Below, in pieces: positions 3,594-34,881 of a DNA stretch of 48,256 bases (within the stretch, counting starts at the first letter, position 1; each line of letters opens with the position of its first letter). The stretch is from Slackia sp. Its GTDB lineage: Bacteria; Actinomycetota; Coriobacteriia; Coriobacteriales; Eggerthellaceae. Location: the NCBI GenBank assembly GCA_030525985.1, contig JAUNDR010000010.1, positions 1 through 48,256 of the forward strand, given 5' to 3'. Below the pieces are notes generated by a model. It was not told the DNA's origin and searched no databases. It worked only from the letters and a program-made list of their open reading frames with translations. The translations under genes were made by a program, and so were the position numbers.

Positions 3594-3815
3594 AAGATTC
3601 TTCTCGATGACTGCCGTCCCGCGATTTCCCGCCGTTCGCATGCATGCGTTCAGGGCGGGAGTTGCGGATTTTGCGCGGCTTCGCTTTCGTCGTCTCGCTC
3701 GAGAGGCGAGGGATGCCCGCTGCAGGCAAAGGAGGAAAGCTTCGACATCGGCATGCGTCGGGCTGCGGATCGCGTTCGATTGCATGGATGCGACAAGAAA
3801 ACGAAGGAGGCTGCC

Positions 3816-4889
3816 GTGCGGATTATCGGCAAACGCGAAGTGGAGGATATGGCCGTCGGTGCGGCCGTGCTCGCTTCGGGCGGCGGGGGAGACCCCTATA
3901 TAGGCAAGCTCATGGCGCTGCAGGCCATCGAGGAATACGGGCCGTTTCAGATGGTGACGCTCGACGAGTTGGATGACGATGCGTGGGTATGCGCGTCGCA
4001 TATGCTGGGCGCGCCCACCGTGTTGGTGGAAAAGGTTCCCAACGGTCGCGAAGGCGTGGGAGCGGTGGATGCGCTCGAAGCGCGCCTGGGCAGGAAATTC
4101 GATGCCATCATGCCGCTTGAGGCGGGCGGTCTGAATTCGCTTCTGCCTTTCCAGGTGGCGGCGGCCAAGGGAGTTCCGATTGTGGATGCGGACGGCATGG
4201 GGCGCGCGTTTCCCGAGTTGCGCCACGTGACCTGGACGCTCTTCGACGTGCCGGCGTGTCCTGCTGCGGTGTGCGACGAAAAGGGAGACACCGTGGTGAT
4301 CGAGGCGATCGACAACGCCTGGGCCGAGCGTTTGGCGCGCAACGTGGCCATCACCACGGGCGGCAGCGTGTTCATGGCCGACTACGCCATGACGGGCGCG
4401 CAGGCCAAAAAGACGAGCATCCCCGGCACCTCGACGTATTGCGAGGTGGTGGGCCGCACCATCCGCGAGGCGCATGAGGCGGGCGGCGATCCCATCCCTG
4501 TGATCCTCGAGCTGCTCAAGGGCAAAGAGCTTTTCCGCGGCAAGCTCGACGATGTGTCGCGCCGCACGGTGGGCGGCTTCGTGCGCGGCTATGCGCATTT
4601 CGAGGGCATCGACGCCTGCCATGGCCGCACGTGCGAAATCGAATTCCAAAACGAGCATCTCATCGCGCGCTCGGACGGCGAGGTGCTGTGCAGCGCGCCC
4701 GACCTGATTGCGGTGCTCGACGCCGAAACCGCGCTGCCGATCACCACCGAGGGCTTGAAATACGGCGCGCGCGGCGTGGTCGTGGGCATTCCCGTGCATG
4801 AGCATTGGCGCAGCCCGCGCGGTCTGGAAATCGCCGGTCCGCGCTACTTCGGCTACGACATCGATTACGTGCCGGTGGAGCAACGATAA
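3816..4889 (+). CDS. DUF917 family protein, first copy (hydantoin-utilisation associated)
   Basis: 357 residues, DUF917 (Pfam later named it, as I recall, S-methyl thiohydantoin desulfurase domain). Seen in sequence: VLASGGGGDPYIG near the N-terminus, LGAPTVLVEKVP, DADGMGRAFPEL, MTGAQAKKTSIPGT, RRTVGGFVRG and the C-terminal VPVEQR. The start is GTG at 3816 with GAAGGAGG 5 nt upstream; the longer frame from 3753 has no such site, and the N-terminus aligns residue for residue with the paralogue at 7010. The family often accompanies HyuA/oxoprolinase-like genes, as here. Substrate is unknown; action on a five-membered cyclic amide ring is an inference from association. Confidence 0.87.
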   Translation: MRIIGKREVEDMAVGAAVLASGGGGDPYIGKLMALQAIEEYGPFQMVTLDELDDDAWVCASHMLGAPTVLVEKVPNGREGVGAVDALEARLGRKFDAIMPLEAGGLNSLLPFQVAAAKGVPIVDADGMGRAFPELRHVTWTLFDVPACPAAVCDEKGDTVVIEAIDNAWAERLARNVAITTGGSVFMADYAMTGAQAKKTSIPGTSTYCEVVGRTIREAHEAGGDPIPVILELLKGKELFRGKLDDVSRRTVGGFVRGYAHFEGIDACHGRTCEIEFQNEHLIARSDGEVLCSAPDLIAVLDAETALPITTEGLKYGARGVVVGIPVHEHWRSPRGLEIAGPRYFGYDIDYVPVEQR

Positions 4890-5049: not shown

Positions 5050-6615
5050 ATGAAGGATTGGCGCATAGGCATCGACGTCGGCGGAACCAACACCGACGCG
5101 GTGGTGCTTGATAACGAATTGAATCTGGTGGCGGCCGTGAAATGCCCGACCACCGAAGATGTGATGGGCGGCATCCGCGCCGCGATGGCGGCGGCGCTTT
5201 CCCAGGTGGAAGGCGCGCGCGAGCATATCGGGTACGCGATGCTCGGCACCACGCACTGCACGAATGCGATCGTGGAGCGCAAGAGGCTCGACCGCGTGGC
5301 GGTCATTCGCCTGGGCGCCCCTGCCACCGCGGCAATCAAGCCGATGGTGGATTGGCCTGCGGAATTGCGCGAGGCCATCAGCGATCGCTGGTATTTGGTG
5401 GGCGGCGGCCATGAGTTCGACGGCCGCGAAATCGCCCCGCTCGATACCGACGAGCTCGAGCGCATCGCCGTCGAAATCGACGGCGCGTGCGACAGCGTGG
5501 CCATCACAAGCGTGTTTTCCCCGGTGGATGCGTCGCACGAGAAGCGCGCCGCCGAGATCGTGCGCGCCCGCCTGGGCGCGGATTTTCCCGTGTCCATTTC
5601 CAGCGAGATCGGCAGCGTGAGCCTGCTCGAGCGCGAGAACGCCACCATTTTGAACGCGGCGCTGGTCACGGTGGCGAAAACCACGTCGGAAAGTTTCGTC
5701 GCGGCGCTTGCCGCCGAGGGCATCGAGGATGCCGAGGTGTATCTGTGCCAAAACGACGGCACGCTGATGAGCGCGGCGTATGCCATGCGCTATCCCATTC
5801 TCACCATCGCCTGCGGCCCCACGAATTCCATCCGCGGCGCATCGTTTTTGACGGGTCTGAAAGATGCCGTGGTGGTGGACGTGGGCGGTACCACGGCCGA
5901 CTTGGGCGCGCTCACGCATGGCTTTCCGCGCGAGAGCCTGCTCGCGGTGGAGATCGGCGGCGTGCGCACCAACTTCCGTATGCCCGATATCATCTCGATC
6001 GGCTTGGGCGGCGGTTCGATCGTGCGCAAGCACGACGACGGCCATGTGACGGTGGGTCCCGATTCGGTGGGCTATCAGGTGCTCACGCGCGCGCTGTGTT
6101 TCGGCGGCGATGTGCTGACAGCCACCGACATCGCGGTGGCGAGCGGTGCCGCCGAAGGCGTGGGCGACCCGGGCAAGGTGGCCGACCTCGACCCCGGTCT
6201 GGTGGCGGCCGCATCGGCGGAGATGGCGCGCATGGTGGAAGAGTGCGTGGACAAGATGAAGACGAGCGCGGGCGATATCGACGTCATCCTGGTGGGCGGC
6301 GGTTCGATCCTCATCCCCGATACGCTCAAGGGCGTGCGCAAGGTGCACAAGCCCGAGAACTTCGGCGTGGCCAATGCCATCGGCAGCGCCATCTCGCAGG
6401 TGTCGGGCCAGATCGAGCGGATTTTCTCGCTCGACGAGATGGGCCGCGCCGAAGCGCTCGCCAAAGCGAAGGAGCTCGCCACCGAAGAGGCCGTGAAAGC
6501 CGGCGCCGACCCTGCGACCATCGAGATCATCGATGTGGAAGACGTGCCGCTGGCATATCTTCCCGGCAATGCCACGCGCGTGCGTGTGAAGGCCGTCGGC
6601 AGCCTGCGGCTCTAG
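5050..6615 (+). CDS. Short hydantoinase/oxoprolinase (HyuA-like) N-terminal domain protein
   Basis: 521 residues with the actin/acetokinase-like ATPase fold of HyuA and 5-oxoprolinase A subunits: phosphate-1 motif IDVGGTNTDA at residues 8-17, phosphate-2 motif DVGGTTADLG near 278 and glycine-rich GLGGGSIV further on. Full HyuA proteins run to about 680-700 residues, so this is the shorter class that travels with DUF917 rather than with a HyuB partner; none is present. AGGAGGAAT precedes the ATG. Expected role is ATP-dependent activation or opening of a cyclic amide, in the cytoplasm. It lies between the two DUF917 paralogues and its stop abuts the structured repeat at 6616. Confidence 0.85.
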   Translation: MKDWRIGIDVGGTNTDAVVLDNELNLVAAVKCPTTEDVMGGIRAAMAAALSQVEGAREHIGYAMLGTTHCTNAIVERKRLDRVAVIRLGAPATAAIKPMVDWPAELREAISDRWYLVGGGHEFDGREIAPLDTDELERIAVEIDGACDSVAITSVFSPVDASHEKRAAEIVRARLGADFPVSISSEIGSVSLLERENATILNAALVTVAKTTSESFVAALAAEGIEDAEVYLCQNDGTLMSAAYAMRYPILTIACGPTNSIRGASFLTGLKDAVVVDVGGTTADLGALTHGFPRESLLAVEIGGVRTNFRMPDIISIGLGGGSIVRKHDDGHVTVGPDSVGYQVLTRALCFGGDVLTATDIAVASGAAEGVGDPGKVADLDPGLVAAASAEMARMVEECVDKMKTSAGDIDVILVGGGSILIPDTLKGVRKVHKPENFGVANAIGSAISQVSGQIERIFSLDEMGRAEALAKAKELATEEAVKAGADPATIEIIDVEDVPLAYLPGNATRVRVKAVGSLRL

Positions 6616-6823
6616 GTTGCGTCGGCCTTTCGGCCGACGCAACCGGGTCGTCCGGCTGCGGACGGGCGGGGCGGCGCATCCGACGCTCCAGGCGGGACTC
6701 ACGTACCGAAGTACGCTACGCCCCGCCTTCATGCCGGCTGCATCCGTCGCGCTCGCCCTCGCCTTCGTTGCGGCGACCTGGGGCGGGGCGATTTCGACCT
6801 GCTGCAACGCCGTTGTTGCTCGG
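6616..6823 (+). repeat. Structured intergenic repeat, copy A
   Basis: A roughly 208-nt element that starts on the base after the hyuA-like stop and is closely similar to copy B at 10332. It holds a 12-bp perfect hairpin (6616-6627 with 6632-6643, loop TTTC), a hairpin CGTCCG-GCTG-CGGACG (6649-6664), a 9-bp stem GGCGGGGCG/CGCCCCGCC (6665-6673 with 6719-6727), and an inner hairpin CGTAC-CGAA-GTACG (6702-6715). The first hairpin may stop or slow transcription or stabilise the upstream message. The rest of the gap to 7009 has no gene but carries a second copy of the short motif TTACGGCGACCTGG near 6920. Confidence 0.8.
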
Positions 6824-7009
6824 GCACCCCGCCTCGACCCTCCGTGCTCCGGTCGCGCACCGCAGTGCGCTCCCTGCGCCAGTCGGGCCGATTCGGGGCA
6901 CCGGGCGGCTTTTCTCTTCGTTACGGCGACCTGGATGTTTTCGGCTAGCGACGACCTGGGATTCGGCTGCGGCAATAGACGTGTATTAACGAGAACGATT
7001 GGACAGGAT

Positions 7010-8092
7010 ATGCGGAAATTGGGAGTTCAGGCGGTCGAGGATATCGCGCGCGGCGCGGCGGTCATGGCGTCGGGCGGCGGGGGAGACCCGTATCTCGGCA
7101 TGGTGGTGGCGCGGCAGACGGTGGAGGAATTCGGCCCCATCACGCTGCTCGAACTTGACGAAATCCCCGATGAAGCGCGCGTCGTCGTGTCGATGGGTCT
7201 GGGCGCCCCCACCGTATTGGTGGAGAAGGTGCCGCGCGGCACCGAGCCCGAGTTCGCGCTGCAGGCGCTCGAATCGGCGTGCGGCTGCGCCTTCGATGCG
7301 CTCCTTCCCTCCGAGGCGGGCGGCTGGAATTCGCTGCATCCCATGCTTCCCGCCGCACGGCGCGGGCTTCCTTTGCTCGATGCCGACGGCATGGGCCGTG
7401 CGTTTCCCGAACTGCAGATGGTCACCTGGTCGGTGTTCGGCCAGAAGTCTTCGCCGATCGGCGTGGCTGACGAGCGCGGCAACGTGATGGTGGTGGAGAC
7501 CGACGACAACAAGCGCGCCGAAGATCTCTGCCGCGGCGCCACGGTGATGATGGGCGGCAACATCTCTCTGGCATGCTACGGCATGACGGGAGCGCAGGCG
7601 AAGGCGAACAGCGTCGCCGGTACGTATACGCTGTGCGAAGAAGTGGGCGCCATCCTTCGCTCGGCGCGTGCGAACAGGGTGGATGCCTACGACCGTTTGA
7701 TGGAGCGTCTCGGCGCGGTGGAGTTGTTCCGCGGCAAGGTGCAAGATGTCGAGCGCCGCACGACCGGCGGGTTCGCGCGCGGAATCGCCACGCTCGAAGG
7801 CATGGATGCGTATCGCGGCGGCATCTTCGAAATGGAGTTCCAAAACGAATTCCTCATGGCTCGCCGCGATGGCGTGCCGGTGTGCACTGCCCCCGACCTG
7901 ATCGCCGCCTTCGATGTGGAAACGCTGACTCCCATCACGGGCGAAGCGCTCAAATACGGTTGTCGCGCCCTTGTGCTGGGCATTCCGTGCGCGCCGCAGT
8001 GGCGCACGCCCGAAGGTCTTGCCGTGGTGGGGCCCGCCGCATTCGGCTACGAAGGCGTGCCGTACGTTCCGGTGGAGCAGCGGGCGTATTGA
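7010..8092 (+). CDS. DUF917 family protein, second copy
   Basis: 360 residues, paralogue of the protein at 3816. Same landmarks: VMASGGGGDPYLG, LGAPTVLVEKVP, EAGGWNSLHPM, DADGMGRAFPELQMVTW, MTGAQAKANSVAGTYT, RRTTGGFARG and the C-terminal YVPVEQR. The ATG at 7010 aligns exactly with the start of the first copy; the ribosome site is weak (GGA at 7001-7003), so translation may be modest. The open frame continues upstream through the structured repeat but that part is not protein-like. Two diverged copies flanking one HyuA-like gene suggest a hetero-oligomer or two substrate specificities. Transcription must pass the copy A hairpin or start in the 394-nt gap. Confidence 0.86.
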   Translation: MRKLGVQAVEDIARGAAVMASGGGGDPYLGMVVARQTVEEFGPITLLELDEIPDEARVVVSMGLGAPTVLVEKVPRGTEPEFALQALESACGCAFDALLPSEAGGWNSLHPMLPAARRGLPLLDADGMGRAFPELQMVTWSVFGQKSSPIGVADERGNVMVVETDDNKRAEDLCRGATVMMGGNISLACYGMTGAQAKANSVAGTYTLCEEVGAILRSARANRVDAYDRLMERLGAVELFRGKVQDVERRTTGGFARGIATLEGMDAYRGGIFEMEFQNEFLMARRDGVPVCTAPDLIAAFDVETLTPITGEALKYGCRALVLGIPCAPQWRTPEGLAVVGPAAFGYEGVPYVPVEQRAY

Positions 8093-8684: not shown

Positions 8685-10331
8685 ATGCGTCAGCCGTCGT
8701 TTTCTCGCCGTCGATTCTCCCAATTGCTCGCCGTGGGCGCTTCGTCCGCCGCGTTCGCGGGCGTGCTCTCGTCGTGTGCGCAATCCGAGTCTTCTGACTC
8801 CGCGCCCGCAGACGAAGCCGCGCAGGAAAAAACCCAGGTCATCGTTTCTATGCCGCCGAACGCCGAGCCCGAGGCCGGTTTCGATCCCTTCGTGGCGTGG
8901 GGTTGCGGCGAACATGTGCACGAGCCGTTGATCCAGTCCACGCTGATTAAAACCGATGCCGATATGGGATTGCACAACGACCTCGCCACGTCGTATGAAT
9001 GCAGCGACGACGGCATGGTGTGGACGTTCAAAATTCGCACCGACGCGAAATTCACGGACGGCGAAGCGCTGACCGCCGAAGACGTCGCCTTCACCATCAA
9101 CGGCATCAAGGAAGCACCTTCTTCGGAAGCGGACTTCTCCATGGTGTCCGAAGCCGTCGCCCTCGATGATGAAACCGTCGAAATCCGCATGGCGCATCCG
9201 TTCAATATTCTTATGTATACCCTGGCAACGGTGGGAATCTGTCCCGCTCATGCCCATGGCGCCGACTACGGCAGCAACCCCATCGGATCGGGCCGTTACA
9301 AGCTTGCGCAGTGGGACCGCGGCCAGCAGATCATCTTCGAGGCGAACCCCGATTATTACGGCGAGCCTCCCGCGATGCAGCGCGTCGTCATCGTGTTCAT
9401 GGACGAAGACGCCTCGCTTGCGGCGGCGCAATCGGGCCAGGTGGATGTGGCGTATACGTCGGCGGCGCTGGCCGATGCCGCGCCCGCGGGCTTCGAGTTG
9501 CTTTCCGTGAAAACAGTGGATTCGCGCGGCATCTCGCTTCCGGTGGTTCCTGCGGGAGCGAAGCGTACGGTCGGAGATGTCGAATACGCTGCCGGCAACG
9601 ATATAACCTGCGATCTTGCGCTGCGACGCGCCATGAATCACGCCGTCGACCGCGAGTTTTTGGTGAAGCGTTCTTTGGGCGGGCATGCGACGCCTGCATT
9701 CAGCCCGTCCGACGGCATGCCGTGGGCGTGCGAAGACATGAAGATCGCCACCGATGTCGAGAAGGCGAAGGCGATTCTCGAGGAAGGCGGCTGGAAGCCG
9801 GGCGACGACGGCGTTTTGGCCAAAGACGGGACGCGCGCGGAGTTTTCGCTGTACTACATGACCAACGACATGATGCGTCAGGCCATGGCGGCCGATTTCG
9901 CCGAACAGATGGCCCCGCTCGGCATCAAGGTGAACGTGGAAGGCAAGGCATGGGAAGACCTCGAGCCGCTTTCGTATTGCGAGGCGCAGCTGTGGGGCTG
10001 GGGTTCGAATTCGCCTATCGAAATCTATAATCTGAACTATTCCGAGGGCACGTCCGATTTCGCCTGCCGCGATAGCGAGACCACCAACGCGTATCTCGAA
10101 CAGGCGGTGTCCACGCCGACGATCGAGGAATCCTACGAGCTGTATCGCAAGGCGCAGTTCGACGGCGAAGAAGGCGTCACGCCCGACACCGATGCGCCGT
10201 GGGTGTGGCTCGCCAATGCCGACCATCTGTACTTCACGCGTGAGGGGTTGAAGGTGGCGGAGCAGAAGCCTCATCCCCACGGACATGGCTGGTCGATCGT
10301 CAACAACGTGGACGAATGGAGCTGGATGTAG
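8685..10331 (+). CDS. nikA: ABC transporter substrate-binding lipoprotein, probable nickel binder (NikA-like)
   Basis: 548-residue family 5 solute-binding protein. The N-terminus has a Tat motif (SRRRF, residues 7-11), a hydrophobic stretch and a lipobox LSSC with Cys31, so it should be exported folded and lipid-anchored outside the membrane. The mature part starts with FDPFVAWGCGEHVHEPLIQSTLI, the form seen in nickel/peptide binders, has GSGRYKL and ANPDYYG, and ends in a His-containing PHPHGHGW. AAAGGAG sits 5 nt before the ATG at 8685. The nickel assignment rests on the upstream tandem NikR-type dyads and the His-rich partner ATPase; a peptide or other metal chelate remains possible. Copy B of the structured repeat begins directly after the stop. 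Confidence 0.82.
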   Translation: MRQPSFSRRRFSQLLAVGASSAAFAGVLSSCAQSESSDSAPADEAAQEKTQVIVSMPPNAEPEAGFDPFVAWGCGEHVHEPLIQSTLIKTDADMGLHNDLATSYECSDDGMVWTFKIRTDAKFTDGEALTAEDVAFTINGIKEAPSSEADFSMVSEAVALDDETVEIRMAHPFNILMYTLATVGICPAHAHGADYGSNPIGSGRYKLAQWDRGQQIIFEANPDYYGEPPAMQRVVIVFMDEDASLAAAQSGQVDVAYTSAALADAAPAGFELLSVKTVDSRGISLPVVPAGAKRTVGDVEYAAGNDITCDLALRRAMNHAVDREFLVKRSLGGHATPAFSPSDGMPWACEDMKIATDVEKAKAILEEGGWKPGDDGVLAKDGTRAEFSLYYMTNDMMRQAMAADFAEQMAPLGIKVNVEGKAWEDLEPLSYCEAQLWGWGSNSPIEIYNLNYSEGTSDFACRDSETTNAYLEQAVSTPTIEESYELYRKAQFDGEEGVTPDTDAPWVWLANADHLYFTREGLKVAEQKPHPHGHGWSIVNNVDEWSWM

Positions 10332-10538
10332 GTTGTGCCGTTCCACCGAACGGCACAACGGGGTCGTCCGGCTGCGGACGGGCGGGGCGGCGCATTCAGC
10401 GCTCCAGACGGGGCTCGCGTACCTTAAGTACGCCACGCTCCGCCTTCACGCCGACTGCATCCGCCGCGCCCGCCCTCGCCTGCGTTGCGGCGACCGGGAA
10501 GCGACGGGCGATTCGACTTGCAGCGACGTTGCTGTCGG
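10332..10538 (+). repeat. Structured intergenic repeat, copy B
   Basis: Second copy of the element at 6616, again starting on the base after a stop codon (nikA). Hairpin 1 (10332-10343 with 10348-10359) is perfect like that of copy A although four base pairs differ, all compensated. The stretch with GGGTCGTCCGGCTGCGGACG is unchanged. The G-rich stem keeps pairing through one G-U (10381-10389 with 10436-10444), and the inner hairpin GCGTAC-CTTAA-GTACGC is at 10417-10433. The element probably acts at the RNA level, for example to raise nikA message relative to the permeases. Confidence 0.8.
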
Positions 10539-10850
10539 ATAGGGCGCTTCGCCTTGCCGCCGCGCCCGCCCTCATCTACGGTTCGGCGACTGGATGACGG
10601 GGCGAATCGTTCGCCCTCGTCTGCGCTTCGGCCGCCGGGCTGCTTTAAGCCGGCGGGGTATCGCCTCCCTCGTCTGCGCCGGGCGATCGGGATGGGGCGA
10701 TTCGACCTGCGGTGCCGCTATCGGCTCAGCCTCGTTTCTCCGTGTCCTGGTCGCGCGATTGCTGCGCGATTCTTGGGCCGGTCATATCGATTGTCGCGGC
10801 GGCAGGCGGCTTTCGCCTGCGTTTCGGCTACCGGAGGAGGTTTCTGATCG
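10539..10850 (+). repeat. Degenerate short-repeat cluster between nikA and nikB
   Basis: The gap up to nikB (10332-10914, 583 nt) carries no gene. After copy B it contains diverged short modules: variants of GCGTTGCGGCGACC (near 10577, 10622 and 10813) and GGCGATTCGACCTGC (near 10503 and 10693), both motifs also found in copy A. This looks like decayed or partial copies of the same element. I see no open frame worth calling, on either strand. Confidence 0.5.
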
Positions 10851-33712: not shown

Positions 33713-33859
33713 GTCGAAGGCGTGCCTGCATCCGTCAGCCCGCCTTCGACTATGCCGACGTTTTGATGCGCTTTGCCCGTGCAGCCGCTTGGTGCTGCGA
33801 AGCCATCGGGCATCCGGTTTCGATTCTGCGCGCTCCGGTCGCATACCGGAGCGCGCTTT
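33713..33859. terminator. Two hairpins, one a bidirectional terminator, between DUF47 and the trigger-factor-like gene
   Basis: GCGCGCTCCGGT (33828-33839) pairs perfectly with 33845-33856 over a 5-nt loop and is followed by TTT; it lies 8 nt beyond the stop of the minus-strand gene. Upstream, GTCGAAGGCG (33713-33722) pairs with CGCCTTCGAC (33741-33750). These fill the convergent gap 33605-33867. Confidence 0.7.
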
Positions 33860-33867
33860 CTGTGGCC

Positions 33868-34881
33868 TCAGCGACGGTCGTATATCAGCAGATGCTCGAC
33901 CGCCCAGCGCAATGCCGCGGCTCGACGGGTTTTCTGCCTGAGCATCCAGAGCTTTCCCGTTGCCTCGAGTTCGGCATAGAGCGATTTTTCTCGGCCCGGC
34001 GCCATTTCCGTCAAAACAGCCTGTTCGTCTTCGGATGCAATTGCGAGGTTTTGCGTGAAGAACAACGTGTCGAGCGCGATATCGCGCGAGAGCTCGTCGA
34101 ACGCTTCGTCATACAGGGCGTCCTGCACTTCCTGCGGTTTCACTCCATGTGCGATGCGATACTCGCGATAGGTGATGCCTTTCTCGCCGAGTCGGGCAAG
34201 AAAGGCATCTTTTTTTCGAGCGAGGGCATCTCGCAAAAGCGTCTCGGGAATGACGCCGTTCAGACGTGCGCGCAGCGTTTCGGCGACGAACTCCTCATCC
34301 GAGGCGACGGCGGTTTCCTCTGCGCGGCGCTTTTCGGACGCTTTTCGGGATGCGACGGCTTGGCGCTCGTTTTTTTCGCTTCGGGTTTCAGGGCGGTCCG
34401 TTTCGGCGGCGGGGCGCGCTGCTTCGGTCGAAGTTTTCGCGGTGTCCGAAGCCGTTGCGTCCGAACGTGCGGATTCGTGCTCGGCGGGCGAGCCAGCTTC
34501 TTTTCCGCATCGTCGCGTAATGGGCGTTTCCGTATCGAGCAGCATCGCGGGAATCGGGTGCGCCGTTACGCGAAACGAAAACGGCGCATGTTCCGCACAA
34601 TCGGATTCCGCTTCCGTGCGCGGTGCGCCCACGAATGGTACGTCAAGCGTCGCAAGCGCCTTCTCTCCTGCGCGAGCCACGATGGTTTCTTTAAGAAACG
34701 TTTGTATCTCACGTGCGGTCATCAGCTGCTTCGTATATGCACGAACGTCCGATTCGGACCGCTTGAAGATGTGCGCGAGCCGTGCGTAGGCGCTATGAAT
34801 TAGGGCATCGATTTCCTCGGCGCTCAGCGTTACCTCGGCCGAAAAAGGCACGGCACGTTTGTCGAACGCGGATATTTCCAT
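33868..34881 (-). CDS. Trigger-factor-like protein lacking the PPIase domain
   Basis: 337 residues. Residues about 10-120 resemble a diverged trigger-factor N-domain (AEVTLSAEEIDALIHSAYARL, then APFSFRVTAHPIPAML) but without the ribosome-docking GFRxGK signature. Residues about 121-205 are a charged Ala/Ser/Glu/Arg linker where the FKBP-type PPIase would be. Residues about 205-337 match the trigger-factor C-domain (RLNGVIPETLLRDALARKKDAF, EVQDALYDEAFDELSRDIALDTLF). The start at 34881 has AAAGGA about 7 nt upstream; the longer frame is not protein-like. It may be a ribosome-independent chaperone; that is inference. It could also be a very diverged SurA-like fold. Confidence 0.65.
   Translation of the reverse strand: MEISAFDKRAVPFSAEVTLSAEEIDALIHSAYARLAHIFKRSESDVRAYTKQLMTAREIQTFLKETIVARAGEKALATLDVPFVGAPRTEAESDCAEHAPFSFRVTAHPIPAMLLDTETPITRRCGKEAGSPAEHESARSDATASDTAKTSTEAARPAAETDRPETRSEKNERQAVASRKASEKRRAEETAVASDEEFVAETLRARLNGVIPETLLRDALARKKDAFLARLGEKGITYREYRIAHGVKPQEVQDALYDEAFDELSRDIALDTLFFTQNLAIASEDEQAVLTEMAPGREKSLYAELEATGKLWMLRQKTRRAAALRWAVEHLLIYDRR

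Follow-up and report, generated by a model that had tools for sequence, protein, structure and literature searches.

Two unrelated genes of a Slackia genome are each followed by a copy of the same hairpin-forming repeat, and the locus raises the question of what this repeat is and what the compensated differences between its two copies mean. The window, i.e., the whole stretch of 48,256 nt that was analysed, is one contig of a genome of 1.93 Mb in 100 contigs. A first-pass annotation described two copies of about 208 nt and proposed an undescribed intercistronic RNA element, kept by selection on RNA structure and perhaps protecting the message of the upstream gene.

The repeat pair and further copies in the window

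Both copies begin straight after a stop codon, as annotated: position 6616, the start of copy 1, is the base directly 3' of TAG at 6613-6615, and position 10332, the start of copy 2, is the base directly 3' of TAG at 10329-10331. The features recognized are listed below, with scores of the covariance model R1 (see the next section).

6613-6615, + strand: TAG stop codon of a hydantoinase A-like gene (5050-6615; Pfam PF05378 and PF01968)
6616-6643, + strand: hairpin H1 of copy 1, 12-bp stem, loop TTTC (GAAA on the other strand)
6649-6778, + strand: rod hairpin of copy 1 (model R1 over its full length, 108 bits)
6702-6715, + strand: P4 tip of the rod, CGTAC-CGAA-GTACG (C(UUCG)G on the other strand)
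6807-6931, + strand: rod of a different subtype, directly downstream of copy 1 and without H1 (60 bits)
10329-10331, + strand: TAG stop codon of a nikA/SBP_bac_5-like gene (8685-10331; Pfam PF00496)
10332-10359, + strand: hairpin H1 of copy 2, with four compensated pairs relative to copy 1
10365-10495, + strand: rod hairpin of copy 2 (model R1, 95 bits)
10520-10591, + strand: partial copy, a fragment (19 bits, E 0.013; repeat family D2)
10699-10832, + strand: degenerate copy (25 bits, E 6e-4)
33795-33898, + strand: probable, though doubtful, relic of the 6807-6931 subtype in degenerate form (75% identical over 57 nt, with no significant R1 score; repeat family D16)

H1 reads GTTGCGTCGGCC-TTTC-GGCCGACGCAAC in copy 1 and GTTGTGCCGTTC-CACC-GAACGGCACAAC in copy 2. 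The stems differ at four positions, and the annotated compensation was confirmed at all four. After H1, the next 137 nt or so align without large gaps, the rods being about 88% identical, and a 26-mer, GTCGTCCGGCTGCGGACGGGCGGGGC, is the same in both copies (chance expectation 0). Both fold into more stable structures than dinucleotide shuffles, with z of -3.6 for copy 1 and -4.0 for copy 2. H1 is followed by CGGGTCG and GGGGTCG, respectively, and not by the T-run that completes an intrinsic terminator.

Other parts of the annotation needed revision. Conservation stops near 6782 and 10498, and the final 40 nt or so of the supposed 208-nt copies do not align. The second hairpin, annotated as invariant, is so only within the subtype of these two copies, but in the wider family the same bases are the foot of the rod. 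Both annotated copies are real, but the window also has the rod at 6807-6931, the degenerate copy at 10699-10832, the fragment at 10520-10591, and the doubtful remnant at 33795-33898.

Genes for S-Me-THD-like paralogues at 3753-4889 and 7010-8092 (the latter call backed by a Pfam match) flank the hydantoinase A-like gene as direct repeats about 3194 nt apart, which suggests a duplicated hydantoinase-type gene pair.

A structure-conserved family and its siting

BLAST first turned up further copies, both in the source genome and in relatives. A near-gapless seed alignment was obtained with 17 copies of eight genomes despite their widely differing stems; it had double changes in 21 of 28 predicted pairs, and R1 was built from it. 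The model recognized 17 copies in the source genome, several of which had served to train it. In two genomes that contributed nothing to training, it recognized 43 (the complete genome G079) and 39 (G101); the G079 count leaves out two weak rows that are reverse-strand echoes of counted copies. Copies were found in 56 of the 120 genomes of the order searched, while the phylum sample gave a single weak match outside the order among the matches listed. Few matches were seen in 400 kb of G090 and G124, and density was then taken from whole-genome counts. An exact 22-mer from the tip of the element matched three records among named genomes, all Eggerthellaceae and two of them Slackia. BLAST gave no match to a plasmid or phage.

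The element is about 165 bases long: H1, with 12-13 bp, is followed by a rod of some 133 nt that ends in a GTAC-CGAA-GTAC cap. The order from 5' to 3' is host gene, stop codon, H1 (GTT-N-CG...CG-N-AAC), the conserved foot CGACGCTGCG, and the rod, which carries 2x2 internal loops up to its tip GCGTAC-CGAA-GTACGC. Beyond the tip are the return arm, TCGCTGAC, and a tail such as TTACTACGCCAACCTGCG. Some copies are without H1, some are in tandem, and some are deletion remnants.

The search with a covariance model that the first-pass annotation had suggested thus yielded both further copies and covariation in relatives. Among 99 distinct copies, 25 of the 28 pairs show double compensatory changes and 91.4% of cells are paired. 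Kinship among the sequences inflates the covariation figures, but their margin over the controls is large: 629 double-change cells against 192 in shuffles, and a covariation score of 0.572 against 0.156 in the control, with sliding and shuffling controls all far lower.

No Rfam family reached its gathering score in the window, and none was recognizable in 12 other copy-bearing loci, where only sub-threshold look-alikes occurred. A known RNA family was ruled out on these scores: the element has strong covariation as Rfam structured RNAs do, but reaches no family's gathering score. The literature searched holds no description of such repeats in Coriobacteriia, which is weak evidence given a limited library. 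The annotated novelty of the element stands in this respect, and a real, previously uncatalogued, structure-conserved family is supported.

The orientation is sense to the adjacent coding frame in 83 of the 85 copies that could be classified, and the stop codon lies 0-8 nt before H1 in 35 and within or overlapping H1 in 30, counts that are approximate, as gene ends were taken from a simple codon-score gene finder. Between co-directional genes are 37 of the 48 scored copies. The host genes (hyuA, nikA, gyrB, frr, pheS, queA, recQ), mostly named by eye from C-terminal sequence, are unrelated, and riboswitch-like control of downstream genes was dropped because of this. Some sites, after frr and between pheS and pheT, are common to different genera and could be old copies or hotspots.

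In G079, with origin and terminus assignment backed by GC skew, 41 of 43 copies are on the leading strand versus 66% of sampled genes (p 4e-6), in a test without control for expression level and with gene orientation and replication direction partly confounded. A two-arc strand pattern was also seen in G090, G086, and G106; G016 and G114 are too small to decide. One of the two copies breaking the replichore rule in G079 (L155) lies between hisA and hisF and is, by translation by eye, antisense to both neighbours.

The two strands of the element do not fold equally. With RNA energies, the strand opposite the host gene is the more stable in 91 of 96 copies, by a mean of 13.8 kcal/mol, versus no strand difference in control coding segments (-0.8, sd 7.0); DNA energy parameters favour the opposite strand in 93 of 96. 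On the sense strand, isolated A-C mismatches outnumber G-U pairs by 112 to 51 (92 to 48 in model columns only), and these mismatches are wobble pairs on the opposite strand. At the tip the opposite strand presents C(UUCG)G, and its H1 loops are mostly GNNA; it also has purine-rich internal loops, and the conserved CGTC at the foot of the rod is on this better-folding strand. Paired cells are mostly Watson-Crick, with G-U at about 3.5% on the favoured strand. A reading of the structure on the sense strand was dropped after this test. An element acting in mRNA should show a better-folding sense strand, so the asymmetry speaks against a role in mRNA; selection against strong mRNA hairpins could contribute to it in part.

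Host proteins and changes between close relatives

Some copies reach into coding sequence. The host frame of several G079 copies continues into H1 and ends at a stop codon in the loop (..VPKA*, ..VASA*, ..VPFA*), while in four others the loop is TTGCCA without a stop and the frame runs on. A RecQ carries an in-frame insertion of about 60 residues, including VPSACQPTERADAAEASGTESCGSK, between its zinc-binding and RQC domains, and a POR gamma/delta fusion has about 75 residues inserted between two 4Fe-4S motifs. Two proteins, fumarate hydratase-like and PhnJ-like, have C-terminal extensions derived from the element. The RecQ and POR insertions are almost certainly gains because they interrupt regions that are continuous in ordinary family members, judging from domain layout and a RecQ orthologue in G114. 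The POR copy in G079 (L165, element at 1501-1662) has an extra hairpin insert in its tip (GTATCCCCTGAGGGGACTTCC...), and tip inserts of the same kind are present in L162 and L163.

The 26 best G079 sites were located in the congeners G114 and G071 at identities of 77-99%. There, many sites lack the element, some contain a complete copy, and at others just H1 or just the tail is present. Among G101 and four close relatives, host genes match one another mostly at 92-99% identity as far as the stop codon, yet at several sites the rods share just 62-80% identity and H1 is swapped for another variant; other sites have simply kept their copy. H1 and rod so appear to be exchangeable blocks. Selection on RNA structure had been considered the simplest explanation of the compensated H1 changes in the window. 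In view of the swaps in the G101 relatives, these changes most plausibly reflect the exchange of H1 variants as whole blocks, not coevolution base by base at the site, and with rods about 88% identical beside four compensated pairs, block exchange is also the simplest reading. All changes would look compensated because copies exchange H1 and rod blocks by recombination.

Exact insertion boundaries and target-site duplications could not be fixed, the intergenic flanks having diverged, and at most single sites gain and loss cannot be told apart. DDE-type MITEs are defined by terminal inverted repeats together with target-site duplications; judged by eye, the ends of the element, GTTNCG.. and ..CAACCTGCG, do not mirror one another. 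At the 3' end of one gene present in both G079 (L139) and G114 (L204), the left arm of H1 consists of the host's own last codons, and the right arm is an inverted copy of the left that tracks each synonymous difference between the two genomes. The pair is a small experiment of nature that sets arm-to-arm correction against selection.

Probable movement and relation to known repeats

The copies are very probably short, non-autonomous mobile palindromic elements of Coriobacteriia-type actinobacteria, which sit at gene 3' ends in sense and fork direction. This reading is built on their dispersal and common structure, presence/absence and subtype replacement between relatives, sense siting at stops, as well as in-frame insertions and, for the complete genomes examined, a replichore bias. 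Most likely, the form recognized in movement would be a folded single strand (DNA) or a folded transcript, with polarity opposite to the host gene. Entry into DNA exposed by the replication fork or by transcription would lead to the replichore bias, and copies would persist at gene ends because insertion damages little there. H1 would supply a stop codon in its loop (..VPxA-stop), or none (VPSACQPTE) in intragenic copies, and later recombination between copies would exchange H1 and rod blocks. Movement may depend on an enzyme encoded by the host, on one since lost, or on recombination alone; searching the tested genomes for RVT_1 and Y1 genes did not reveal a mobilising gene.

It is possible, though rather unlikely, that much of the covariation was made not by selection but by quasi-palindrome correction of DNA, i.e., template switching between arms. 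The right arm of H1 in L139, matching different synonymous versions in G079 and G114, fits such correction, as does the predominance of Watson-Crick pairs with few wobbles. The twofold wobble bias toward one strand and the conserved loop motifs on that same strand do not.

That the repeat is of REP type, with a Y1/RAYT transposase moving it by way of single-stranded hairpins, is improbable. The copies resemble REPs in being palindromic, replication-oriented, and downstream of genes with some inside them (PMC3733652, PMC6006769), but the complete genome G079 has 43 copies and no Y1 gene, the three Y1 genes examined for flanking repeats have inverted repeats of other kinds on their borders, and the Y1 genes searched have no good copy of the element next to them. 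Moreover, the strand exposed on the lagging template would be the worse-folding one. RAYT was rejected as a general partner, since the Y1 genes searched are not associated with the element. RAYT-sized Y1 genes in G012, G090, and G014 (L239-L241) each have their own flanking inverted repeats, with 33-nt tandem units, TGACAAGGGGACAGG..., and TGGCATAAAAGGGGAC..., and are apparently separate REP-like systems in the same family.

Quite improbable, too, is a SINE-like retroelement, a bacterial SINE whose structured RNA, from the strand opposite the host gene, would be copied into gene ends at forks by a resident or lost reverse transcriptase, with the 3' hairpin as a stop-codon cassette. On the opposite strand, the C(UUCG)G tip, the GNNA loops, the internal loops rich in purines, and the G-U pairs would suit an RNA, and priming of cDNA from the nascent leading strand would agree with the orientation. 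However, the same strand asymmetry appears with DNA energies, and G-U pairs are few on the favoured strand. RVT_1 is absent in three of five genomes tested (G000, G101, and G014), two of which are copy-rich, and a reverse transcriptase as universal partner was thereby rejected. An integron attC-like site, suggested by the GTT..AAC ends of H1, was dropped by reasoning on end order, because H1 is GTT...AAC on both strands and attC is AAC...GTT.

That H1, with or without the rod, is kept as an intrinsic or bidirectional terminator seems very doubtful. A GC-rich hairpin does stand straight after the stop codon in most copies, and SPRITE is a precedent for a mobile terminator-like repeat in a review of MITEs (PMC10969869). 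Against this, neither window copy has a T-run 3' of H1, one copy sits between pheS and pheT, in-frame copies have to be transcribed through, and some copies are without H1. Least probable of all is the proposed message protection, that is, a fixed intercistronic or 3'-UTR RNA element stabilizing the upstream message: it would suit the sense siting beside stop codons, the extensive covariation, and the copies between co-directional genes, but of the two strands that of the mRNA is less stable, close relatives often have the orthologous gene without the element or with another subtype, some copies lie within coding sequence and are translated through in frame, and copies track replication direction more tightly than genes do.

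Rickettsia palindromic elements (RPEs) are palindromic, dispersed repeats of about 150 bp that lie in frame inside unrelated genes (PMC10969869), and for CGTC-type repeats, some RPEs among them, no mobilising gene has been reported (PMC3733652). The present repeat is likewise palindromic and found in frame in the RecQ, POR, fumarate hydratase-like, and PhnJ-like genes, but it belongs to other bacteria, most of its copies are sense at gene 3' ends, and it has a two-hairpin architecture, a stop-codon loop, and replichore orientation. REPs are palindromic, dispersed, and mostly downstream of genes, sometimes inside them; they are 20-40 bp long with an unpaired GTAG or CGTC tag, and stems of the CGTC type are 8-9 bp (PMC3733652). 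REPINs have been described as miniature mobile DNA (PMC3116915). Despite its conserved CGTC at the foot, the element, at about 165 bp and with its rod of about 133 nt, falls outside this definition in length and architecture, and no cognate Y1 gene flanked by its repeats was found among the Y1 loci searched. BOX/RUP and SPRITE of pneumococcus are small interspersed structured repeats (PMC3049150), SPRITE being terminator-like by name (PMC10969869); they were compared by description, and no report was seen of sense-only siting at stops. By analogy, the element would work like RPEs and REPs, its likeness to RPEs lying in the mode of working, and it is best read as a new family of mobile palindromic repeats outside the tested definition of REPs.

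Perfect compensation in a pair of copies does not in itself attest to RNA function, since shuffled palindromic blocks look just the same. The family is a sizeable addition of mobile palindromes to an order of actinobacteria for which the literature searched describes none, and its rules are unusual: copies are sited in sense only at stops and run with replication, a hairpin loop can carry the stop codon, and hairpins are exchanged as blocks at fixed sites. Copies differ between very close relatives, and therefore their movement and the reshaping of protein ends are testable by strain comparison.
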